From assembly GCA_026989035.1 (NCBI GenBank), contig JALSKB010000002.1:1-35852 (forward strand): a stretch of 35,852 bases of DNA, written 5' to 3'. The DNA comes from Saprospiraceae bacterium (lineage in GTDB: Bacteria > Bacteroidota > Bacteroidia > Chitinophagales > Saprospiraceae). Position numbers and translations under genes: made by a program. Each line of letters starts with the position of its first letter. The stretch's first letter is position 1. Below are positions 5,567-35,223 of this stretch, in pieces. The notes under the pieces are model-generated. The model was not told the origin of the DNA and made no database searches. It worked only from the letters and a program-made list of their open reading frames with translations.

Positions 5567-7090
5567 TCAGCAATTTTCCCAGACCAGCTCTACTTCACAT
5601 TTCCGACCATTGAAGTTGACGCCCACAGCTATCAGCTTTTTGCCCGTAGAGCGGTATGTATCTAAGTAGCCTCTTTGTTTAATCTGCTCCAGGGCCTCCT
5701 CAGGCGATTTGTTTAACTTAAACTCAAAGCAATAAACCTTGTCTTGCAAAGCCACCACCACATCGGAGCGGCCCAGAGCCGTGCTCTCTTCACTGCGCAC
5801 TTCCAGTCCGGCGTATTTGAAAAACAAGTGTATGGTCGCATGGTAAAACCGTTCGCCTTGTTCTTGCAGTTGATACGGCAAACTGCGAAACAAGTTGTTC
5901 AACAAATCCCGCAGCAAAGCCATGTCCTCCTTGCGCAGAGCCTTGATCACCGACAAGGTCAGACTCCGCACCTGCAGCAAATCCGAGCGGCTGAAAGCGT
6001 GTATCAAGTACTCCAGCATGGACTCTTTTACTTCCCTGTTGGGATAACCCAGGGTGTAGAGCCGCGTATCGCGATTGTATTTCTTGACCGTCAGATAGCC
6101 CGTCTGGAACAACAAGGCTGTCAGGTTCAAGTGATCCAAATCAAAAGAATCAAAGGCCGATTCGCTGACTTCTATGCCATCCAGCTCCACGTACTCTCGT
6201 TCGCTGATCAGCTCAATCAAAAAAGTCGGCGTAGCCGTCTTGAACCAATGATTGGAAAAACGAAGACTGTCAAATAGCAGCAAAATACTGAAGGGATTGT
6301 ACACGAAGTGCTTCCCATCCCAGCTGTAGCCGTTGTACCATTCCCTGATCTTGGGCAAGGGGTCTTGCTGCTCTTCTTCGGCTAAAGCTTTGATGTGCTC
6401 TTGAAAGTAGTGCTCCAATTCCTCCTGGGTATAACCCAGCATAGTGACATAGCGGGGGTGCATGGTGATGTCGTTTAAGTTGTTCAAGTCCGAAAAGATG
6501 CTCACCCGACTAAACTTCGACACCCCCGTGATGAACACCAGGCGGATGTAGGCGTCGCTGTCCTTGATGATGGAGTAGAAATTCTTCAGCACCTGCTGGT
6601 TGGCCTTGGCCTGCTCTATATCTCCACCCAGGTAGTCGATGATGGGCTTGTCGTACTCGTCGATCAACAAGACCACCTGACCTTCAGACGAAAGTTTTTT
6701 GATGACCTTTTCAAATTTTTGAGAGAGGACTTTTTCCGCTATGTCTAAATCTCTCTGCTCAATGATCTCGTCCAAGTGGGCGTGCAAGGCCTGTTCTAAA
6801 CCCAGCTCCTTGTGCCCTATGCTGCTAAAGGGAATGTGCAAAATCGGATTTTTCTTCTCCCAGTTCCACCGGTCTGCTATCCACAAGCCCTCAAACAGTT
6901 CTCTGCTGCCGCTGAACAGCTCCTTTAAGGTACTGACCAACAGCGATTTGCCAAAACGGCGCGGGCGGGAGAGGAAGTAATACTTCCCTCCCGTAACCAA
7001 GGTGTGGATGTATTCTGTCTTATCGACATAGAGATAGCCGCCTCTGCGCAATTCCGAAAAATCCTGTATGCCGACGGGCAGTTTCTTCAT
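5567..7090 (-). CDS. AAA-ATPase-like / PD-(D/E)XK nuclease-superfamily protein
   Basis: 507 residues. The N-terminus has the family signature PVGIQDFSELRRGGYLYVDKT and a Walker A of unusual form, RPRRFGKSLL (residues 42-51, K48). Walker B is VVLLIDEYDKP (D144/E145). The C-terminus has a nuclease-like core: GRSD (D443), then CFEFKL (E456, K458), then ALEQIKQRGY. This matches the AAA-ATPase-like plus PD-(D/E)XK (DUF1703) family, often present in many copies in Bacteroidota and of unknown role. The start is ATG at 7090 with TATCTTTG five bases upstream. The gene sits between direct copies of a palindromic repeat (5378-5445 and 7172-7267) and is followed by a dispersed 3' repeat, which suggests a movable or amplified unit. 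No frameshift is seen. Confidence 0.9.
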   Translation of the reverse strand: MKKLPVGIQDFSELRRGGYLYVDKTEYIHTLVTGGKYYFLSRPRRFGKSLLVSTLKELFSGSRELFEGLWIADRWNWEKKNPILHIPFSSIGHKELGLEQALHAHLDEIIEQRDLDIAEKVLSQKFEKVIKKLSSEGQVVLLIDEYDKPIIDYLGGDIEQAKANQQVLKNFYSIIKDSDAYIRLVFITGVSKFSRVSIFSDLNNLNDITMHPRYVTMLGYTQEELEHYFQEHIKALAEEEQQDPLPKIREWYNGYSWDGKHFVYNPFSILLLFDSLRFSNHWFKTATPTFLIELISEREYVELDGIEVSESAFDSFDLDHLNLTALLFQTGYLTVKKYNRDTRLYTLGYPNREVKESMLEYLIHAFSRSDLLQVRSLTLSVIKALRKEDMALLRDLLNNLFRSLPYQLQEQGERFYHATIHLFFKYAGLEVRSEESTALGRSDVVVALQDKVYCFEFKLNKSPEEALEQIKQRGYLDTYRSTGKKLIAVGVNFNGRKCEVELVWENC

Positions 7091-18387: not shown

Positions 18388-20421
18388 ATGCAGTTCTTAT
18401 ATCCCGGATTCTTATGGGCGCTGGCCTTCTTGGCCATACCCGTTCTCATTCACTTGTTTTACTTTCGGCGCTTCAAGCGGGTTTACTTCACCAATGTGCG
18501 CTTTTTGCGGGAAGTGCAAGAAGAAACCAGTGCCCGAAGACGCCTGCGCAACCTGCTGGTACTGGCCATGCGCCTGTTGGCCCTGAGCATGCTGGTACTG
18601 GCTTTTGCCCAACCCTTCCTTTCCCGAAAGGAAAACCTCAAACAAGGCCCGCGAGCCGTGAGTATCTACCTGGACAACTCCTTCAGCATGCAGGCCGAAA
18701 GCAGCGATGCCGCCTTGTTTGAACTCGCCCGACAACGCGCACGCGAAATCGTCAACGCCTATTCCAACGAAGACCGCTTTCAAATCCTGACCAACGAACT
18801 GAGCGAACGCCAACACCTGCTGCTGGAAAAAGAAGAAGCCTTAAACCTCATCGAAGAACTCGACTACAGCCCCATAACCCGTCCACTTTCGCAAATCCTG
18901 GATATCCAGCAAAGTGTAATCCAAAAAGCCAAAGACTTACATGCGGTGCTCTATCTGCTGTCGGATTTTCAACGCAGCATCACCAACTTCCAACCCTTAC
19001 AAGACAGCTCTCTGGAGGTGTATCTGGTGCCCATGCAAGCCGTCGTACAAACCAACATCAGCATAGACAGCGCCTGGTTCGAAAATCCCATCCGTGCCTT
19101 AGGGCAAACGTACAAGCTCTTTACCCGCCTGAGTAACTACGGGGAAGAAGCTCAAGAAGACGTACGCCTGGGCCTAACTCACGAAGGAGAAACCAAACCG
19201 GCAGGCACACTGGACATCCCGGCGGGAAAAACCATCACTGATACCATCAAATTAACCATGCTTCAAAGCGGCTGGCATCAAGCCGAATTGAACGTGGACG
19301 ACTACCCCGTGCAATTCGACGACCGGTATTACTTCGCCTTCCCGCTCAGCAAAGAATTGCCCGTACTCAACATCTATGCCGAAAAACCGCATCCTGCCTT
19401 GCGCCAGGCTTTTGAAGCCATGCCACAATTGCGCTACGAAGAGAAACCGCTGTCCCGACTGGACTACTCCACATTCAACACTTACAAACTCATCGTTTTG
19501 GATGAAGCCCTGCGCCTTTCTTCGGGCCTAATCGCCGAATTGAAACAATACCTGGCACAAGGAGGCAAACTGCTCATCTTTCCACACCCCCAGGCCGACA
19601 TCTCCTCCTATCGCCAACTAAGCGCCGCGCTGAGCAGTGCTCAGCTGGCCAGGTGGGAAGAAATAGAACAGGGCGTCACGCACATCAACACCGAAGAATT
19701 CATCTTTCGGGAAGTCTTTGAAAACACCGATGAGGCCCTCCGCTTACCGGTTACTCAAGGGCGCTATCAACTCAATTTGCCCCCCTCCTCCAGCGGAGAA
19801 ATGCTCCTCAGCTACCGCGACGGCTCTGCCTTCTTGGCCAAAACCGAATGGGGCAAAGGCTTGGTTTATACCTGCGCCGCTCCACTCGACGAACAGTACA
19901 GCAACCTGACCCGCAATGCGGAAATCTTCGTTCCCATGTTATTCCGCATGGTTCTGGCCGGAAGTAAAGCTCCGGCTATAGCACACACCATCGGCAAGGA
20001 AGAATGGCTGGAAGTTGAACAACTGCCCCTTCAAGACCAAAGCGAACCGGTCTATAAAATGGCCGGCCCGGGAGGAGAATTCATACCTGAGCAACAAATC
20101 ACAAACTCCGGCCTGCGCATCCACCTGCGCAACCAGATACAAAAAGCCGGTTTTTACAGCCTGTATCTGGAAAAAGACAAGCCCTTATACGTCTTTGCCT
20201 TCAATTACGACCGCCGCGAGTCTGACCTACAGACTTTCTCTCCGGATGATCTGCAACGCCAATGGCCCCAAATGCAAGTGCTTGACACCTATGCCCGAGC
20301 GGACTTCTCCCAATACATCAGCGAACAGGAAAAAGGCCTCTCTCTCTGGCGTTGGTTCCTCATAGCAGCCCTGCTCTTCCTCGGCCTCGAAGGGCTTATC
20401 TTGCGCTTTTTCAAAGCCTAA
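18388..20421 (+). CDS. BatA-domain / VWA-like membrane protein
   Basis: 677 residues. The N-terminus MQFLYPGFLWALAFLAIPVLIHLFYFRRFK, then RRRLRNLLVLAMRLLALSMLVLAFAQPFL, is the aerotolerance-regulator (BatA) N-terminal domain with two membrane segments. The next part contains YLDNSFSMQ, where the MIDAS motif DxSxS of von Willebrand A domains is present as DNSFS, and LLSDFQRS. A long periplasmic-like region and a C-terminal membrane helix (LWRWFLIAALLFLGLEGLIL) follow. Related Bacteroidota proteins sit with MoxR/DUF58 clusters; here that cluster is about 7.6 kb away (27993). Last gene of the pssA run. Function unknown. Confidence 0.85.
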   Translation: MQFLYPGFLWALAFLAIPVLIHLFYFRRFKRVYFTNVRFLREVQEETSARRRLRNLLVLAMRLLALSMLVLAFAQPFLSRKENLKQGPRAVSIYLDNSFSMQAESSDAALFELARQRAREIVNAYSNEDRFQILTNELSERQHLLLEKEEALNLIEELDYSPITRPLSQILDIQQSVIQKAKDLHAVLYLLSDFQRSITNFQPLQDSSLEVYLVPMQAVVQTNISIDSAWFENPIRALGQTYKLFTRLSNYGEEAQEDVRLGLTHEGETKPAGTLDIPAGKTITDTIKLTMLQSGWHQAELNVDDYPVQFDDRYYFAFPLSKELPVLNIYAEKPHPALRQAFEAMPQLRYEEKPLSRLDYSTFNTYKLIVLDEALRLSSGLIAELKQYLAQGGKLLIFPHPQADISSYRQLSAALSSAQLARWEEIEQGVTHINTEEFIFREVFENTDEALRLPVTQGRYQLNLPPSSSGEMLLSYRDGSAFLAKTEWGKGLVYTCAAPLDEQYSNLTRNAEIFVPMLFRMVLAGSKAPAIAHTIGKEEWLEVEQLPLQDQSEPVYKMAGPGGEFIPEQQITNSGLRIHLRNQIQKAGFYSLYLEKDKPLYVFAFNYDRRESDLQTFSPDDLQRQWPQMQVLDTYARADFSQYISEQEKGLSLWRWFLIAALLFLGLEGLILRFFKA

Positions 20422-20585: not shown

Positions 20586-20765
20586 ACTCTTATGGCCCTA
20601 GTACTGCACTCCTCATTTTAGCTATCTTTACCACAGTAAACCATGCCACTGACCTGGATGTCACCTTACCCAAAGCGCTTGCAGAAAAAACGAGTTTTTA
20701 GCGGTAAGCAAACGCCACGCAGTGGACAACACACCATAACACACCCAACATCCAACTTCATTGCC

Positions 20766-22736
20766 ATGAGAAAGCTGTTGTTCTTTTTTCTATCGGCCTT
20801 TTTCATCACTCAAAACTTGATAGCACAGGAAGAGCGCCCCGTAGATTTTAGCACACAACAAGAAGGAGATGCCTTGCGCTTTATCCCTCAGCCTCCTCCT
20901 TTACAGCAAATGGCCGGCGCGCCACCCGCCTATTGGCAATACTTCTGGGAATTCGGAGATGGCAGCTTCTCCTTTGAAGAACAACCTCTGCACGCCTATC
21001 CCGACGGCGGAGAATATGAGGTCATCTTGGCTCTGACGGCCACCTATGACCACGGCAAACCACCTAAAGAAAAACCCAAAAAAGTACGGGGCAACAGCAG
21101 CGGCTGGGCCTCCAACCAGCCCATGCCCAACGTCCTGCCCAAGCCCAAAGACGCCATCGCCCTGCAAGCCGTGCGCAATCCAAGGCCCGAAGAAAGCTTC
21201 ATCCTCATCCTCAGCTACCACAACCCCACCCAACACACCATAGACGGGCAAATCACGGTCAATTACAACGAAACGGCCTTTGGCTACGAGCTATTCACCT
21301 TCCGGGAAGCCCGCACCCACTACGGCGAAACCCCAGCACAAGGGCTGAGCTTGCTGCTGCCCGAAGACCAAACGATAGAAGCCTCGGCCTATGCCTGCAC
21401 AGAAGAAGGGCTGCCTTTCGGCAAATGGGAAAGCAAAACACCCATTCCCTCAATGGCTTATAAAAACAAAAACTCCGACTTCGGCCAGTCCGAAGGTTGG
21501 TTCTTCCAAAACCTGGCCCCGGGAGAAACTCGAAACCTCTTCATGAGTTTCGACGCCTCACCCCAAATGCTGCAAGACACCAACGTCATCATCCACTTCC
21601 AAGCCCGATTACAAGACGCCAGCGGCCAACTGGACGAAACTTTCGACCTGGCACTTTCCATCGTCTCCTCCCACGACCCCAACTACCTGGCCGTTGACAA
21701 ACGCCTGAGAAGCTATCGGGGCATTCGCAAAAAGACCTTCAAATACGAAGTGCACTTCCAAAACAACGGAGACGGACCAGCCAACAAAATCCGCGTCAGC
21801 GTAAACATCCCCGAAGGCCTCAACCCGGAATCACTGGAAGTCTTGGACTTCTACCCCGAGTGCCCCATTTGCCCGAAAGGGCAAACCATAATCGGTAGCT
21901 GCTTAGACACCGCTTTATACAGCAACCGCGTGGAATTCACCTTCCACAACATCTATCTACCCGGAACAAAACAGCAAGGCGTGAGCAAGCGGGATTCCAC
22001 CAAGGGCTTTATCCGCTATGCCCTCAAACCCGGCAAAAAGACCGAAAAACGCAAAATGAAAAGCCGGGCTTCCATTTTCTTCGACAACGATGCTCCCATC
22101 ATCACCCGACCGGCTAACACCCGCTTTAAGTGGGGTATATCGCCCGGTCTGGTTTTATCCCGCCCCTTCTACCCCGACACCGTAAGCCAATGGCGACTGG
22201 GTTTTGTGGCAGCCCCCTTCAAACCCTATAAACCCTACTTGCAAATGGAAATACACGGGGGCATAGGCTTCAAAGCCAAAAAAACAGAGCAGGAAATGGA
22301 CACCACTTCCTTTGTCATTCCAGGACAAAATTTCCAAACCGACTCCATTTACACGACACAGAAAAACATTTCAACTTCACGCTTTTCTATGGAGTTCGTC
22401 CCCTTGCACTTGCGCCACAACCTGGGGGGCTTCTTTGCTCTGGGCGCCGGAGTCTCCGTAGAATGGGCTCAGGAAGTCCACGATGTTACGGCTTTTCGCT
22501 CTCTGACTGAAATTTGCCAAATCGGTTCCGCTGGCACATTTTGCCATACCGATGTAAACCCGGGAACGACTTCTGAAGAGTACAGAACCTCTTCCCAATA
22601 CTTTGCTCCATCGCTCTTTGCCGAAATGAGCCTGGGCACCGTACGCCTTGGACCTTCCGTAGGTTTGCGGGCCTATCTCCCCCTCTCCGATAAACGAAAA
22701 TTTTACCTAACTGCTTTCGGCTTATGGCGGTTTTGA
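20766..22736 (+). CDS. Exported PKD-domain protein with repeat-like middle and barrel-like C-terminus
   Basis: 656 residues. Signal peptide MRKLLFFFLSAFFITQNLIAQ. A PKD domain is visible around 25-100 (YFWEFGDGSFSFEEQPLHAYPDGGEYEVIL). The middle holds a DUF11-like segment (VDKRLRSYRGIRKKTFKYEVHFQNNGDGPANKIRVSVNIPEG) with CPIC nearby and SIFFDNDAPI. The last ~180 residues alternate polar and hydrophobic residues in short strands and end in LTAFGLWRF, with the terminal Phe common in outer-membrane beta-barrels. The arrangement suggests a surface-exposed module held by a small barrel; this is inference. The upstream ATG at 20643 (122 bp earlier) is in frame, but the signal peptide favours 20766. 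A TATCTTTA box lies at 20624-20631. Confidence 0.75.
   Translation: MRKLLFFFLSAFFITQNLIAQEERPVDFSTQQEGDALRFIPQPPPLQQMAGAPPAYWQYFWEFGDGSFSFEEQPLHAYPDGGEYEVILALTATYDHGKPPKEKPKKVRGNSSGWASNQPMPNVLPKPKDAIALQAVRNPRPEESFILILSYHNPTQHTIDGQITVNYNETAFGYELFTFREARTHYGETPAQGLSLLLPEDQTIEASAYACTEEGLPFGKWESKTPIPSMAYKNKNSDFGQSEGWFFQNLAPGETRNLFMSFDASPQMLQDTNVIIHFQARLQDASGQLDETFDLALSIVSSHDPNYLAVDKRLRSYRGIRKKTFKYEVHFQNNGDGPANKIRVSVNIPEGLNPESLEVLDFYPECPICPKGQTIIGSCLDTALYSNRVEFTFHNIYLPGTKQQGVSKRDSTKGFIRYALKPGKKTEKRKMKSRASIFFDNDAPIITRPANTRFKWGISPGLVLSRPFYPDTVSQWRLGFVAAPFKPYKPYLQMEIHGGIGFKAKKTEQEMDTTSFVIPGQNFQTDSIYTTQKNISTSRFSMEFVPLHLRHNLGGFFALGAGVSVEWAQEVHDVTAFRSLTEICQIGSAGTFCHTDVNPGTTSEEYRTSSQYFAPSLFAEMSLGTVRLGPSVGLRAYLPLSDKRKFYLTAFGLWRF
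21413..21425 (-). repeat. Dispersed 13-mer, GCC-GAAA-GGC form
   Basis: GCCTTTCGGCAAA inside the PKD/barrel gene, read Pro-Phe-Gly-Lys. Confidence 0.85.
21867..21885 (+). repeat. Dispersed motif variant with longer stem
   Basis: ATTTGCCCGAAAGGGCAAA in the PKD/barrel gene: the stem is one pair longer (TTTGCCC/GGGCAAA) around the GAAA loop, with perfect pairing over seven bases. Confidence 0.65.
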
Positions 22737-27992: not shown

Positions 27993-29333
27993 TTAAATCA
28001 ATCCGCGAGCCTTCAACTCCAGATACTTGTTAATCACGCCCACACTCAAGTCTGCAGGTTTAACGAGCAAAGCCTGAATGCCGTAATTTTGCAATTTTTG
28101 CACCATTTCGTACTTGCTGTGGATGAGATGTTGAGCATGAGTTCTCGTATAAATACCCTCCACGTCTTCCACTGCTTGCATGGCTAAGGCTTCCACTTCT
28201 GTGTTTTCAAAAAAGACCACCAACAACAAGTGTCTCAGATTGATGCGTCGCAAAAGAGGCAAAGCCCTGTCCAAGGCGTGATGGCTCTCAAAATTAGTGA
28301 ACAAGATGAGCAAGCTGCGATGCTTGACGAACATACGAGTCGCCTGATACAAAAGCTCAAAATCACTCTCCACCAATCGATGGTGCTGATCGTACAAAGC
28401 TTCTAAAACAGCAGACAGTTGGCTTGGCTTTTTGTCTGCCATCAACACATCTCCCAATTTGTCTGAAAAGGTAATCAGGCCGGCTTTGTCGTGCTTGAGA
28501 AGTACGATGTTTAAAAGGGCCAGAGAAGCATTGATGGCATAATCCAACAAGGTCAAGCCCTCAAAAGGCATGTGCATAATACGCCCCTTGTCCAAGACGC
28601 AGTAAATGTTCTGTGAACGCTCTTCCTGATAGTGATTGACCATTAGGCGATGGCGCCGGCCGGTAGCCTTCCAGTTGATGTGCCGGTAATCATCGCCTTT
28701 GACGTATTCCTTGATTTGGTCGAATTCATAGCTGTGACCTATACGTCGTACCTTTCGAATACCTGCACGATCACCCACGCGATCAAAAGCCAAAAAGGCA
28801 TAGCGCTTCATCTGGATGATTGACGGATAAACCGGCAAGACTTCTTCTTCCGCCAGGCTAAACTTTCGCTGCAGCAAGCCCAGAGAGCTGCTGAGATACG
28901 CGTGCAAAGCTCCAAAGACATATTCCCCGCGTTGAACAGGGCGCAACTTGTAGCTCAGTCGTTGCTTTTCGCCTTTTTGCAAACGCGTTTTTAAAAAAAA
29001 GTCTCGCTTTTGAAATTGTATCGGCAATTCATCAATCAAAGAAACATATACGGGAAAAGAAAGCAGATTTTCAATCTCGATGTCAACTTTATTGAAATCG
29101 CTAAGTGAAAAGAGCTTGGGCAAATGACGCTTTAAATACAAGGGTTTCTTCTTCTTATACAACAGAAGGCCGTCTGCCAGTAAAAACGCAAGCAAAATAA
29201 TCAGCAGGGATTGAGCCAGCGCAAAACACCAGGGAACAAAAAAACCACAAACAAAGAGCAACACCAAGCCTCCCAACAAGAAAAACAATCTTTTCCCCAA
29301 ATACAAACTATGCCAGAAATCTTTCAAACTCAT
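27993..29333 (-). CDS. DUF58-domain protein
   Basis: 446 residues. Two N-terminal membrane helices (RLFFLLGGLVLLFVCGFFVP and LIILLAFLLADGLLL), then a beta-rich segment and the DUF58 signature VRRIGHSYEFDQIKEYVKGDDYRHINWKATGRR. The remainder is VWA-like (CVLDKGRIM, LITFSDKLGDVL, LLILFTNFESH). DUF58 proteins are partners of MoxR ATPases. The ATG at 29333 shares its A with the TGA of the MoxR gene (TGATG), so translation is coupled. Last gene of the operon starting at 34420. Confidence 0.9.
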   Translation of the reverse strand: MSLKDFWHSLYLGKRLFFLLGGLVLLFVCGFFVPWCFALAQSLLIILLAFLLADGLLLYKKKKPLYLKRHLPKLFSLSDFNKVDIEIENLLSFPVYVSLIDELPIQFQKRDFFLKTRLQKGEKQRLSYKLRPVQRGEYVFGALHAYLSSSLGLLQRKFSLAEEEVLPVYPSIIQMKRYAFLAFDRVGDRAGIRKVRRIGHSYEFDQIKEYVKGDDYRHINWKATGRRHRLMVNHYQEERSQNIYCVLDKGRIMHMPFEGLTLLDYAINASLALLNIVLLKHDKAGLITFSDKLGDVLMADKKPSQLSAVLEALYDQHHRLVESDFELLYQATRMFVKHRSLLILFTNFESHHALDRALPLLRRINLRHLLLVVFFENTEVEALAMQAVEDVEGIYTRTHAQHLIHSKYEMVQKLQNYGIQALLVKPADLSVGVINKYLELKARGLI

Positions 29334-30391
29334 CAACGCGGCACTTCAATCTGTTCTAAAATTTCAGTAACGACATGCTTCACTTCCAAACCTTCCATTT
29401 CCCTTTCGGGAGTCAAAATCAACCTATGGCGCAAAACGGGAAAGGTTACGGCTCGAATGTCATCAGGCGTAACAAAATCACGCCCTTGTAAAGCAGCTAT
29501 GGCCTTAGCCCCTTTCATGATGCTTAAAGACGCACGAGGTGATGCTCCCAGGAAAAGATCGGGATGTTCTCGCGTTTTATGTACGACTTCTGCAATATAG
29601 CCCAGCAGATCGGAGCGAACATAAATCTTTTCTATCAACTGCCTGAATTTTAAAATCTCTTCTTCACTCAACACAGCCTCCACATCATCTTCCACTCGTT
29701 GATCGAAATCTTGGGCGAAGCGCTCCAGAATGGCTCGTTCGTCATCCAAACCCGGATAATCCGCTTTGAGTAAAAAGAAGAAACGATCGAGCTGAGCCTC
29801 CGGCAAGCGGTAAGTACCTTCTTGTTCAATGGGGTTTTGCGTAGCCACCACAAAAAACAGATCACCCAAGGCATAGGTAGTCCCGTCTATGGTAGCTTGA
29901 TGCTCTTCCATCACCTCAAACAAAGCCGATTGGGTCTTAGCCGGCGCGCGGTTGATCTCATCTACCAACACAATTTGCGCAAATACGGGGCCGGCGACAA
30001 AAGAAAAATCGTTTTCTTTCATGTTGTACACCGTGGTACCCAACACATCACTGGGCATGAGATCGGGAGTAAACTGCAGGCGAGAAAATTTCAGCTTGAG
30101 GGTTTTGGCCAGCATGCGAGCCAACAGCGTTTTCGCTATACCCGGCACACCTTCGATTAACACATGGCCTCCGGCAAAAAGTGCTATCAACAACTCGTCG
30201 ATAAGCTCTGCCTGCCCGACAATGACTTTTCGCAATTCTGCTCTAACTTTTTCCACAGAACTTTGTAAAGGCTGCAAATCAAGCCTGGCGATATGAGCAG
30301 CTGCCTCGGGTTCATAGGGAGAGGCTACCGGAGATTCCACTTCTCGAGGAACCTGCTGCTCTTCGGGGTTTAGGTTTAGTTCTTCCGACAT
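29333..30391 (-). CDS. MoxR-family AAA+ ATPase
   Basis: 352 residues. Walker A GVPGIAKT (81-88), Walker B VLVDEIN (141-147, D144/E145), sensor region FVVATQNPIEQEGTYRLPEAQLDRF and the C-terminal lid (FLGASPRASLSIMKGAKAIAAL). MoxR ATPases act as chaperones for assembly or metal insertion into VWA-domain partners. The first ~40 residues are acidic and Pro-rich, likely disordered. It is one base from the DUF58 ATG downstream and 2 bp after the DUF4350 stop upstream. Confidence 0.95.
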   Translation of the reverse strand: MSEELNLNPEEQQVPREVESPVASPYEPEAAAHIARLDLQPLQSSVEKVRAELRKVIVGQAELIDELLIALFAGGHVLIEGVPGIAKTLLARMLAKTLKLKFSRLQFTPDLMPSDVLGTTVYNMKENDFSFVAGPVFAQIVLVDEINRAPAKTQSALFEVMEEHQATIDGTTYALGDLFFVVATQNPIEQEGTYRLPEAQLDRFFFLLKADYPGLDDERAILERFAQDFDQRVEDDVEAVLSEEEILKFRQLIEKIYVRSDLLGYIAEVVHKTREHPDLFLGASPRASLSIMKGAKAIAALQGRDFVTPDDIRAVTFPVLRHRLILTPEREMEGLEVKHVVTEILEQIEVPR

Positions 30392-30393
30392 AT

Positions 30394-31788
30394 TTAAGAT
30401 GGTTTTGAGTTTGAAACTTTCTTCCTGTCCTGTTCGTAAAAAGCACTCAACAACTTGTGCAAGCTAATCAAAACAGGTTCTTCAAAGCGAGAAGAGCGCT
30501 CTACGTTTTTTTTCAACAAAAAAATCTTTTCAATTAACTCTTGAGACACACCACTCCGGCGGGCCAGTGCTGAAGCTTGCTTTGAAGAAAGCTCACCGTG
30601 TAAAGATAAGGCATAATGCCTATGCACATAGCCTACCCACAGCCGCAACATTTCCAGCCCCAACTTTCTATGATTCCCCTTCAAAAAAGTCAATTGCCCG
30701 ATCAAAGCAACATATTCCATGGAGGTGTTTTTCGGCTGCACCAAAACGGGAACAATCCGCTGACGACGCTTCCCCATAAACAAGACAAACAACAAACCCG
30801 AACTCAACAACAAATACCAAGCCCAAGCCAAAGAAGGCTGAGAAAGTACGTATTTCAAAGGAGTTTGAGACAGCGTAGGATACACATCATCAATATCGTC
30901 AAAGGCAAAAGTAGGCCTACTGTCCCAATAGATGTGGCCTTTCGGCAAATGTGCAAAAACCGCAGAGGCATAGGCAAAACCTTCCTCCTCCAACAAGCTG
31001 TAATTGGTGAAAGCCAAGGGCGTGGAATGCAGGTAAATCTTCCCTTTGCCGAAAGGCAAATAGAAAAAATTTACGCCTAAGGGTTCTTCTTCACCCTCCT
31101 CATTTTCATAGACATAATCCCCTATGCGAATTCGGCCCAAAGCTCTTAGCGCTATTTCTTCATCAGGACAAGCAGACCAACACGGACACAGAAGTTCTTC
31201 TCCCAACTCATGCCAATTGAATAACCCTACTTCGTAATCAGATCTAAAAAGCAAAGTATGAGAAAGAATTGTGGAATCCAGGGTGAGTTCAAGAACGGCG
31301 AGAGAGTCCCTGTAAAAATCGTAAAAAAACTCATCGTAAAAATCTTCCTGTAAAACAGGGTATTCTTCTCCGTTTTCATATTGAATGAACCAAGAGCCAT
31401 CATGCTTTCGCCAACACATCCGATAAAGCAAAGAAACGGGTAATCCTTCCGATGCTATAAAAGCCACATGCCCCTCTTCCACAAAATCCAGCAAGCGCTC
31501 ATTCTCCACCGAATCGTAATTCATCTGCACTCCAATAAAGACAAAAGCAGAAGAGTCATCTCTTTCGTCAAAGGTGAGGCTATCTTCCAAAACCGTGAAA
31601 TCCCTTGAAGAATTTTTCAGTAAATCATAGATGAAATACAAAGCATAAGGGTCTTTACTTTCGACTTGATAATTGGGATACCACCAGGAGTAACGGGCAC
31701 CAAATTTCTTGGGTAAAACCAGAAACACAACAAACAGGGCTGCTCCTGCGACCAACAATCCTATACTCTTTCTTGTCTTATCACTCAT
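30394..31788 (-). CDS. DUF4350-domain membrane protein
   Basis: 464 residues. An N-terminal helix (SIGLLVAGAALFVVFLVLP), then GARYSWWYPNYQVESKDPYALYFIYDLLKNSSRDFTVLE as in DUF4350 proteins, a Rossmann-like extracellular or periplasmic part (FVFIGVQMNYD, VAFIASEGLP, GKIYLHSTPLAFTNYSLL), a second helix (AWAWYLLLSSGLLFVLFMGKRR) and a cytoplasmic tail. The family fits the MoxR cluster; its activity is unknown. It overlaps the end of the SpoIIM/DUF4129 ORF by eight bases, and two copies of the dispersed motif lie within it. Confidence 0.8.
   Translation of the reverse strand: MSDKTRKSIGLLVAGAALFVVFLVLPKKFGARYSWWYPNYQVESKDPYALYFIYDLLKNSSRDFTVLEDSLTFDERDDSSAFVFIGVQMNYDSVENERLLDFVEEGHVAFIASEGLPVSLLYRMCWRKHDGSWFIQYENGEEYPVLQEDFYDEFFYDFYRDSLAVLELTLDSTILSHTLLFRSDYEVGLFNWHELGEELLCPCWSACPDEEIALRALGRIRIGDYVYENEEGEEEPLGVNFFYLPFGKGKIYLHSTPLAFTNYSLLEEEGFAYASAVFAHLPKGHIYWDSRPTFAFDDIDDVYPTLSQTPLKYVLSQPSLAWAWYLLLSSGLLFVLFMGKRRQRIVPVLVQPKNTSMEYVALIGQLTFLKGNHRKLGLEMLRLWVGYVHRHYALSLHGELSSKQASALARRSGVSQELIEKIFLLKKNVERSSRFEEPVLISLHKLLSAFYEQDRKKVSNSKPS
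30937..30949 (-). repeat. Dispersed 13-mer, GCC-GAAA-GGC form
   Basis: GCCTTTCGGCAAA in the DUF4350 gene, read Leu-Pro-Lys-Gly. Confidence 0.85.
31045..31061 (+). repeat. Dispersed 13-mer, extended palindrome
   Basis: TTTGCCGAAAGGCAAAT in the DUF4350 gene, 95 bp from the copy at 30937; read Pro-Phe-Gly-Lys on the coding strand, a different frame from its neighbour. Confidence 0.85.
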
Positions 31789-34420
31789 TATCGGAAGAAG
31801 TGCTTCTCAGTTCAGTAAAAAAATGTTCAAATTTTTCTTTAATCAAAGCATAAGCCTCTGCATCTACGGAATATTCGCCGTATCCGGTATAATCAAAAAT
31901 GCGAGTTAAATCAGAAAAAAGCGCAAAGAAATCTGTTCCGGAAAGCTCTCTGAGAAGTTCTCCATTGGTTTTGTCTTTACTCCAAATAACGAGCTTTTTT
32001 TGCACCAGAAGCTGCAAGGCTTGTAAGTAGATGAGACGTACTGCCAAGGCGTACTCACCATTTCGCTCTGCCTGTTGCCGAGGTGTCTCAATATCCGCTT
32101 CCTCCAGATGAAGACGCAAATACTCCACCGTTTGCTCCCCGGAAAGTTCACCTCCGATTTTCTTTTTCTTCGGCATAAAAAGTGGCTCACCGGTGGCCAA
32201 AGAGGCTATCCCCCAAACGATCACGGCAATGAGAATGACAAGCCCCACTACCCGAAAAACAGCAATCCACAATTCCGCGCTACGCTTTTCTCTTTTCTGC
32301 TCTATTTGCCTTTTTTCCTTCTTCTTTTTCTCTTTCTCAGGCAAAGGAGGATAATCTACCGTACTAACTAAAGCTTCCCAACGCTCTTTGTCTAAACCCT
32401 GAACCTCTGCTGCTTGAGCTTGCAAAGGTACTGAAAAAAAACAAGACGAAAACAAAAAGAAAGAAACAAGAAACACTATAGCTTTTAAAATGGAGCCGGC
32501 ACCCTTTCCGGAGCCTTCCCTTTCTTCCTTTTCCAGACCTCTAATGCGTTTCGACATGCCCAACTGTTCTATCCGATTCTTTAAAGCCTCCGCCGTATGG
32601 ATTTCTTTTACGGTAAAATACATCTGCCCCATAGCGATAAAAACCAAGGTAAAGTACGTCAAAAAGGCAAAGAGGTACATCCAGATAAAAACCCAGGAGA
32701 CGATCTTTGACCCGAGTTCATCATCTGCCACAAAAAAGTTCATAGATATAAACTGCAGCAACAAATTAGGCAAAGGAGTCTGCAAAAACAAAAAGAGAAA
32801 AAAGCCAATCAAGCCTATGGATAAAGCCAGGATGACATACTGAGAAAATCCATTGGCAATGGTTTTTATCGACTCAAAAAGGGAAGCATTCATCATATTG
32901 TTCCTCCACTCCTTCCAAATAGAAATAAAGGCTGCCAGACTTATCCAAGAGATCAGTACAAACTCCAAGAACAAAGACATATCGCCAAAAAGATGAATAG
33001 ACCAGAGCAAACCTCCCATAAGAGGAAACAAAGCGCCAATAGACTTCCAAACTTCCTCTCCCGACTTTTTATCCGACGGAGCCTTGTCAAGCTCTTCAAA
33101 GAAGAATCCTCCGAGCTGATAAGCTAAGATACCCAAAAATATCATTTGCGAAAAACCCGATAAAAGGACAGTGTTCAAATCCATTCTCCCGTTATTCCAA
33201 GATCCAAACAGAAACATGGGCTTATCGAAAACAGCTTGCAAATTCACCTCTGCCTTTCCTTCAGACAAAAATTGGACAACAAACCGAAGAATCAAAAAAA
33301 GCAATGGAATGAGAAGGGAAAACTTAAACAACAAGGGTAACAAACGCCCGGAATACTTTCGAAAAAAAGAAAAAGTATCCACAAATAATTCTCCTCCACT
33401 TCTGGGCTTGTCATAACGTATGGCTTGAAAAGCATCGGGAGTTAATCTGCCCGGAGAAGAGATAAGTGCTCCTCGCTTACGACCGATTTTAATCGGCAAG
33501 TACACGTAATAATAAATCACAAATGCCAGGCAGAGCAAAATAAAAAAGCCTCTAATCCACTGAGGTGCTTGGGTATAACGCGAAAAAAAGCCCTCAACAA
33601 AAGCTGCTATGAGCGTAAGAGGAACAATACCCATCAAAATCTGCACGCCCCGACGAGCCGAACGACGAAAAGATTTTATACGGGAAAGCGTTCCCGGAAA
33701 AAGTAAGCCCATCCCCATCGTCAAACCCGCAGCACCGGAAATTACCGCAGCCGACATCTCCAAGGTACCGTGCAACCAAATCGTCAAAAAAGACGTCCAA
33801 AACAAATCCCGCTCAATAAAAAAATACTGAAACGTGCCTACCATGATGCCGTTGTACAACAAGATGGCTAAACTGCCAATTCCAGCAAAGAGACCTGAAA
33901 AAAAAGTCAGCATATTCACCCATAAATTGTTCATGGCAATGCCCACAGACATGCCCAAAGCATCTCTGCTCCGGTAAACGGCCAAAGGGTCCCCCGAAGC
34001 AATATTCTCCTCCGTCATCATCACATAGCCATCCCCCAGGATGAATCGGGCAAAACCGGGATCATATATACTGGAAAAAACTCCAATCAAAACACTGAGC
34101 GCAAAAAACAGAAAAGACAGACGCATCGCTCCACGAGCCTCATACACCAGCAAGGGAAGATCTTCAGCCCAAAAACGAACAAAATCAGATTTGCGCACTT
34201 TCCTGCGCTTGTACAAGTTGTCAAAAATTTTGCGGGCCAGAGTATTCAGATAAACGCGTACCGAACGAAAACGATAAAAAGTCTGAGCATAGGACAAATC
34301 GTCACTGACCTTCACAAACAACTCACCTAAATCCGAAGGATCAGCCTGCTTTTCCTCAAGCAAAACCTCCAGCTCCTCCCACTTTCTTTTGTTTTGGTCG
34401 ATGAAATCTCGTTCTCGCAT
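31781..34420 (-). CDS. SpoIIM (DUF95) - membrane - DUF4129 fusion protein
   Basis: 879 residues in one uninterrupted frame. Residues 1-310 are SpoIIM-like: MRERDFIDQNKRKWEELEVL, several helices and the WLHGTLEMSA motif (H217, E221). Residues ~340-640 form a second polytopic segment (e.g. LLPLLFKFSLLIPLLFLILRF) that I cannot assign. After a charged stretch comes AIVFLVSFFLFSSCFFSVPLQAQA (to ~671), which looks like an intact signal peptide with an AxA end. A Lys/Glu-rich linker, a helix (WIAVFRVVGLVILIAVIVWG, ~718-737) and a cytoplasmic DUF4129-type domain (YALAVRLIYLQALQLLVQKKLVIWSKDKTN, FDYTGYGEY) follow. In relatives these are usually separate genes in the MoxR operon. The ATG at 34420 is preferred over a TTG at 34435. 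First gene of the operon. Confidence 0.85.
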   Translation of the reverse strand: MRERDFIDQNKRKWEELEVLLEEKQADPSDLGELFVKVSDDLSYAQTFYRFRSVRVYLNTLARKIFDNLYKRRKVRKSDFVRFWAEDLPLLVYEARGAMRLSFLFFALSVLIGVFSSIYDPGFARFILGDGYVMMTEENIASGDPLAVYRSRDALGMSVGIAMNNLWVNMLTFFSGLFAGIGSLAILLYNGIMVGTFQYFFIERDLFWTSFLTIWLHGTLEMSAAVISGAAGLTMGMGLLFPGTLSRIKSFRRSARRGVQILMGIVPLTLIAAFVEGFFSRYTQAPQWIRGFFILLCLAFVIYYYVYLPIKIGRKRGALISSPGRLTPDAFQAIRYDKPRSGGELFVDTFSFFRKYSGRLLPLLFKFSLLIPLLFLILRFVVQFLSEGKAEVNLQAVFDKPMFLFGSWNNGRMDLNTVLLSGFSQMIFLGILAYQLGGFFFEELDKAPSDKKSGEEVWKSIGALFPLMGGLLWSIHLFGDMSLFLEFVLISWISLAAFISIWKEWRNNMMNASLFESIKTIANGFSQYVILALSIGLIGFFLFLFLQTPLPNLLLQFISMNFFVADDELGSKIVSWVFIWMYLFAFLTYFTLVFIAMGQMYFTVKEIHTAEALKNRIEQLGMSKRIRGLEKEEREGSGKGAGSILKAIVFLVSFFLFSSCFFSVPLQAQAAEVQGLDKERWEALVSTVDYPPLPEKEKKKKEKRQIEQKREKRSAELWIAVFRVVGLVILIAVIVWGIASLATGEPLFMPKKKKIGGELSGEQTVEYLRLHLEEADIETPRQQAERNGEYALAVRLIYLQALQLLVQKKLVIWSKDKTNGELLRELSGTDFFALFSDLTRIFDYTGYGEYSVDAEAYALIKEKFEHFFTELRSTSSDNE

Positions 34421-34470: not shown

Positions 34471-35223
34471 ATGCCAGCAACGCTATTTATAGTAACCCCA
34501 CAACAAGTACGCATCGAGTACGAACTGGCAACACTTGGAGAGCGCTTCATCGCCAAAATCATCGACATCCTTCTCTTCTCTGTCGCCTATTACTTCTTTA
34601 CTTATATCTTTTTTGAGCTGACAGCAGCAGCTCTACAAGATACATGGTTCACCTTATACCTTTTCTTTTTCTTCCTGCCTCTCTTCAGCTTTTTGCTCTA
34701 CCATTTTCTTTTTGAACTTTTTAAAAACGGACAGACGCCTGGAAAAATGTTGCTCTCCCTGCGCGTCGTACCCCTCGATCAGTGGGAGCCCAAGCTCAGT
34801 CACTATGCGCTAAGGGCAATCTTTCTCATACCCGACCTCATCATGAGCATGGGTATCTTCGGCGCCCTGTTCATCAGCGGCTCCCCCCTGAGACAACGCA
34901 TGGGAGATCTGACAGCCCATAGCGCTGTAGTTCGCCTGAAAACACAGCGCACTTTCTCTATAACAAATATATTAAAAATAAATAACAAGAAAATCAAAAA
35001 AATCACCTGGCCTCGCCTCAAAGAATTGACCGATGAAGACATGCTTCTCGTCAAAGAAACACTCCAACGCTATAAACTCTACAACAACAAGAGCCACCGC
35101 CAAGCGCTGCAACAACTGTGCGTAAAGATGGCAGAACTACTGCAGACAGAGCCCCCCAAACCCAAAGACAGAGAAAAGTTTCTCAAACGCATACTCAATG
35201 AATACGTGCTGATTACGCGCTAA
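34471..35223 (+). CDS. RDD-family membrane protein
   Basis: 250 residues. RDD features: LATLGERFIAKIIDILLFSVAYYFF (with R and D in the first helix), FFLPLFSFLLYHFLFELFKNGQTPGKMLLSLRVV (NGQTPGK after helix 2) and RQRMGDLTAHSAVV (the late D). A long charged, helical C-terminal tail of ~85 residues follows (KELTDEDMLLVKETLQRYK), probably cytoplasmic. RDD genes are regular neighbours of SpoIIM and the MoxR cluster, here transcribed divergently from it. Function in this context unknown. Confidence 0.9.
   Translation: MPATLFIVTPQQVRIEYELATLGERFIAKIIDILLFSVAYYFFTYIFFELTAAALQDTWFTLYLFFFFLPLFSFLLYHFLFELFKNGQTPGKMLLSLRVVPLDQWEPKLSHYALRAIFLIPDLIMSMGIFGALFISGSPLRQRMGDLTAHSAVVRLKTQRTFSITNILKINNKKIKKITWPRLKELTDEDMLLVKETLQRYKLYNNKSHRQALQQLCVKMAELLQTEPPKPKDREKFLKRILNEYVLITR

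Follow-up and report, generated by a model that had tools for sequence, protein, structure and literature searches.

SpoIIM homologues lie beside vWA and MoxR-type genes in several bacteria (PMC5898192), and a MoxR-Bat operon of Riemerella influences stress resistance (PMC11834572); the MoxR-DUF58-SpoIIM-DUF4129 cluster is the subject of neither report. Our literature search found no papers on SpoIIM or DUF4129 of the MoxR cluster in Bacteroidota and none characterizing the DUF parts of that cluster. A comparable gene layout occurs in the cytochrome b/c1 precursor FbcH of Bradyrhizobium, in which one chain contains two membrane proteins separated by an internal signal peptide and cleavage is known from experiment.

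The locus described here, in a window of 35,852 nucleotides from a Saprospiraceae genome, resembles FbcH in its one-chain layout with an internal signal peptide, but the proteins are unrelated and cleavage of the window product is a prediction. With the SpoIIM family (PF01944/COG1300) of vWA-MoxR neighborhoods it shares a PF01944 match in its N-terminal domain, and it differs in carrying a middle membrane part and DUF4129 on the same chain as SpoIIM. In Bacteroidota MoxR clusters, standalone DUF4129 proteins (PF13559) have in common with the window protein a signal peptide, a loop, a transmembrane helix, and a C-terminal domain, but they are normally encoded by a separate gene directly downstream, whereas the window DUF4129 part has no start of its own. 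We consider it probable that the locus represents a lineage-specific fusion within the Bacteroidota MoxR cluster, with an inherited signal peptide that preserves topology.

Results

The fused gene (31781..34420, minus strand) runs without interruption from an ATG to a TGA and encodes 879 residues in the order SpoIIM, polytopic middle, internal signal peptide, and DUF4129; one copy of it is present in the genome, which totals 3.1 Mb in 215 contigs. The SpoIIM-type part (residues 1 to 320; 33461..34420, minus strand) has a Pfam core at residues 102 to 281 that matches PF01944 with an E value of 4e-34, scoring 118 bits against a curated cutoff of 26.9. No Pfam family was matched by the middle part in the Pfam scan; this part (residues 345 to 635; 32516..33388, minus strand) matched a homologue-derived profile (E value, 5e-67) and ends in the tail RIRGLEKEE, the site of the stop codon in relatives. 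The DUF4129 part contains a transmembrane helix placed by hydropathy at about residues 717 to 736 (32213..32272, minus strand) and a C-terminal helical domain (residues 737 to 879; 31784..32212, minus strand), much of which was modeled by AlphaFold between residues 771 and 870 with a pLDDT of about 80. PF13559, located at residues 797 to 858, scored 21.8 bits in the whole-protein scan, just below the cutoff of 24.8, and 25.2 bits, above it, when the C-terminal part was scanned alone; as the family was matched in 21 of 21 aligned homologues, the assignment to DUF4129 is borderline by score but clear from aligned homologues. The AlphaFold model of the entire protein, built from four input sequences, had a mean pLDDT of 47, too poor for topology, and no solved structure matched the fused protein by sequence. 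The original prediction of an 879-residue frame with SpoIIM, middle, and DUF4129 parts is thus borne out by an open frame in the assembly and by Pfam matches at both ends.

The relatives, compared by a search of related genomes and by scanning their open frames with profiles, indicate which part of this arrangement is new. SpoIIM and the middle part occur in one protein in 61 of 72 tree rows, and in most of the family they share one gene of about 620 codons with a separate DUF4129 gene directly behind it, whereas in some other families (e.g., L023, L092, and L097) all three parts are separate genes. Among the matches listed, the middle part and DUF4129 were split in 56 of the 57 loci in which both were resolved. 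Both congeners of the window organism are split, with a downstream DUF4129 gene that has its own signal peptide; identity to the window protein is 59% over SpoIIM-middle for one of them (G002) and about 50% over DUF4129 for both. A conserved tail, approximately IxxIGxxKRIxGLEKE, closes the middle part in most relatives, and the stop codon comes immediately or at most a few residues later. The region had been proposed as a three-part fusion: comparison with split homologues upholds the joining of DUF4129 to the upstream membrane protein, but the union of SpoIIM with the middle part is old and found widely, and in these alignments the DUF4129 junction is the only new element in the window. Nor is the region a single domain of ancient origin: as a rule DUF4129 has a gene to itself, and the middle part, too, occurs in separate-gene versions. 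The history was probably stepwise, from three genes to two and, in the window, to one. As a separate observation, the SpoIIM profile matched two relatives (L072 in G008 and L073 in G017) in two pieces with extra residues between them, which suggests an insertion inside the SpoIIM part in these genera.

At the DNA level, the middle part of the congeners ends with TAA, and the ATG of DUF4129 follows four bases on in a different frame. The window junction is a net 11 bases longer, as counted by eye from the alignment, and reads through as EREGSGKGAGSILK; both the stop codon and the ATG are lost and EGSGKGAGS stands in their place, within a linker, REGSGKGAGSIL (residues 634 to 645; 32486..32521, minus strand), defined from the DNA alignment with the two congeners and the codon list. 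An assembly or sequencing error that masks two separate genes might be suspected, given that the window genome is fragmented and that the split arrangement holds in both congeners and in nearly all relatives, but we judge it very improbable. There is no ATG across the junction in any of the three frames, so that two genes each starting with ATG would not be regained by correcting one wrong base or indel. In frame, the closest ATG codons are M622, the only one near the junction and located upstream of it, and M749; GTG649 and TTG656 are also in frame but fall within the hydrophobic core of the following segment. The linker is, moreover, several residues long, and the independently fused gene of G464 (see below) comes from a genome of about 30 contigs. 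Non-ATG starts are apparently present in the family, making such an error unlikely rather than impossible: in genus g59 (L043:3403-4203, L047:3400-4200, and L059) no ATG is found near the start of the DUF4129 gene, which probably begins at a TTG three codons past an in-frame stop. Internal initiation at M622 or at a rare start, yielding a separate DUF4129 protein besides the fusion, is likewise improbable. M622 is in frame just ahead of the linker, an N terminus beginning MSKRIRG would provide a charged signal-peptide n-region, and G464 keeps the original DUF4129 Met in frame; against this, M622 falls within the conserved tail of the middle part, and the congeners do not have Met at that position.

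Beyond the linker lies a signal-peptide-like segment, KAIVFLVSFFLFSSCFFSVPLQAQA (residues 646 to 670; 32411..32485, minus strand), that aligns with the N-terminal signal peptides of standalone DUF4129 proteins and keeps a lysine at its own start and LQAQA at its end. The predicted hydrophobic stretch ending in LQAQA, originally placed at residues 648 to 671, was located at about 644 to 665, with LQAQA at 666 to 670, and the alignment with split homologues agrees with the proposal that a signal peptide was retained after fusion; its identity as the inherited DUF4129 signal peptide is well supported by this homology. Most standalone DUF4129 relatives start with a signal peptide whose last residue is small and precedes Gln: of 122, 90 scored as having a good small-x-small site under a simple criterion that we devised, and 95 have a small residue followed by Gln. 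The distance from charge to site is 22 residues in the window and 23 in the congener (5 to 95% range, 13.7 to 23). The tail ahead of the segment carries nine K/R residues between positions 596 and 643 and, by the positive-inside rule, would be cytoplasmic, so that the segment would run outward and the helix at about 717 to 736 would run back; we infer a cytoplasmic location for the DUF4129 domain, matching that in the separate protein. Caution attaches to the loop at residues 663 to 716, which this topology places in the periplasm and which is rich in both K/R (13 residues) and D/E (11 residues).

The original prediction called for the fusion to be sought in relatives, and one independent case emerged in the sampled genomes. 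G464, from a different, distant family, has the three parts in one stop-free 908-residue frame (L137), followed, as in the window, by DUF4350-like, MoxR, and DUF58 genes. It was the sole other fusion among DUF4129 frames from the order, class, and phylum samples; the family search covered best rows only, so the fusions in the survey sample are a lower bound and more may exist. A contig search with the single window protein as the query returned two loci only, both distant. The one family-mate of G464 in the sample (G503) is split, and in a maximum-likelihood tree of the SpoIIM part each fusion stands beside its split relative with 100% bootstrap support; well-supported branches require two independent fusion origins. 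Unlike the window protein, G464 retains the original DUF4129 Met, in frame, ahead of a recognizable signal peptide (VMHATIILCLVSLLTTANPASTQ), and its cleavage motif, NPASTQ, is weaker, so that conservation of cleavage is not clear there.

Several further candidates were rejected. Open frames near 900 residues in g59, g102, and g21 all proved to have stop codons in the DNA, and the long frames of G604 and G523 each contain a stop. A match in G737 was marginal (E value, 7e-4) and outside the DUF4129 core. Stop readthrough, considered from neighbors in frame and separated by one stop, was also set aside: 21 of 56 were in frame, about the one third expected by chance.

Discussion

The window fusion is a variant, rare but recurrent, of an already known gene cluster, and a recurrent fusion of neighboring genes that is topologically neutral is its most likely explanation. 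The upstream SpoIIM-middle gene, normally of about 620 residues, would have been left without its stop codon and the DUF4129 gene behind it without its start codon, giving one polytopic protein; among closely packed operon genes, such paired losses would be an easy route to fusion. Placed after a positively charged cytoplasmic tail, the signal peptide would span the membrane in the orientation that it has in the separate protein, and the periplasmic loop, transmembrane helix, and cytoplasmic domain of DUF4129 would keep their ancestral topology. The fusion may be nearly neutral because the kept signal peptide preserves this topology.

Signal peptidase I may cut the product, at least partly, after A668 or A670 and so release two ordinary proteins. 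In its fullest form, this reading holds that a polyprotein split by signal peptidase I at the inherited internal signal peptide has arisen on two or more occasions and keeps the synthesis of two MoxR-dependent complex partners equal, which we put forward tentatively, as somewhat short of an even prospect. Alternatively, the old signal peptide could now be a plain transmembrane helix, with SpoIIM-middle and DUF4129 permanently tethered 1:1 through a short Gly/Ser linker; taken as a whole, this too is a serious but less than even possibility. The linker EGSGKGAGS is flexible by composition, the 22-residue hydrophobic segment is toward the long end of the range, and the motif in G464 is weak, all of which are consistent with tethering, but Ala-Gln-Ala is kept, needlessly for a pure transmembrane helix, and the segment is no longer than the presumably cleaved version of the congener. 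The alignment with standalone proteins makes the internal segment homologous to an N-terminal signal peptide, as a polyprotein of this kind would have. Retention of Ala-Gln-Ala favors continued cleavage, but a young fusion would keep it anyway. From these sequence features we consider cleavage, whether complete or partial, slightly more likely than permanent tethering. If the product is indeed cut internally, it would be a rare case of a bacterial polyprotein made up of membrane proteins.

It had also been asserted that the fusion shows these domains to work as a complex. This is too strong: two independent fusions raise the likelihood of association but do not prove it, and we regard them as suggestive of physical association between the fused parts. 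That the same pair has fused twice independently does argue for joint production and use of these membrane proteins, and the fusion offers a natural tethered construct for structural work.

The gene neighborhood is that of a Bacteroidota MoxR-DUF58 cluster, and the SpoIIM-DUF4129-MoxR-DUF58 arrangement recurs across the sampled Bacteroidota. Downstream of the fusion, and overlapping its stop by 8 bases, is a DUF4350 gene (30394..31788, minus strand; PF14258 E value, 2e-9), and closely packed on the same strand are adjoining genes for a MoxR-type AAA+ ATPase (29333..30391, minus strand; PF07726 [AAA_3] E value, 1e-62) and a DUF58 protein (27993..29336, minus strand; PF01882 E value, 6e-15). A divergent gene for an RDD-family membrane protein lies upstream (34471..35223, plus strand; PF06271 E value, 1.5e-20), and no sporulation genes were seen adjoining the fusion. 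From this neighborhood, the functional setting is probably a membrane assembly served by MoxR, in which the fused protein would belong to a set of inner-membrane partners acted on by the ATPase. Elsewhere in the window, a 677-residue protein (18388-20421, plus strand), encoded outside the MoxR-DUF58 operon, has a BatA-type (aerotolerance regulator) N terminus, a 697-residue protein (20643-22736, plus strand) contains PKD_4, DUF7619, and DUF7849 domains, and a third gene (5567-7090, minus strand) encodes an AAA-ATPase_like and PD-(D/E)XK nuclease-type protein (PF09820 and PF08011).
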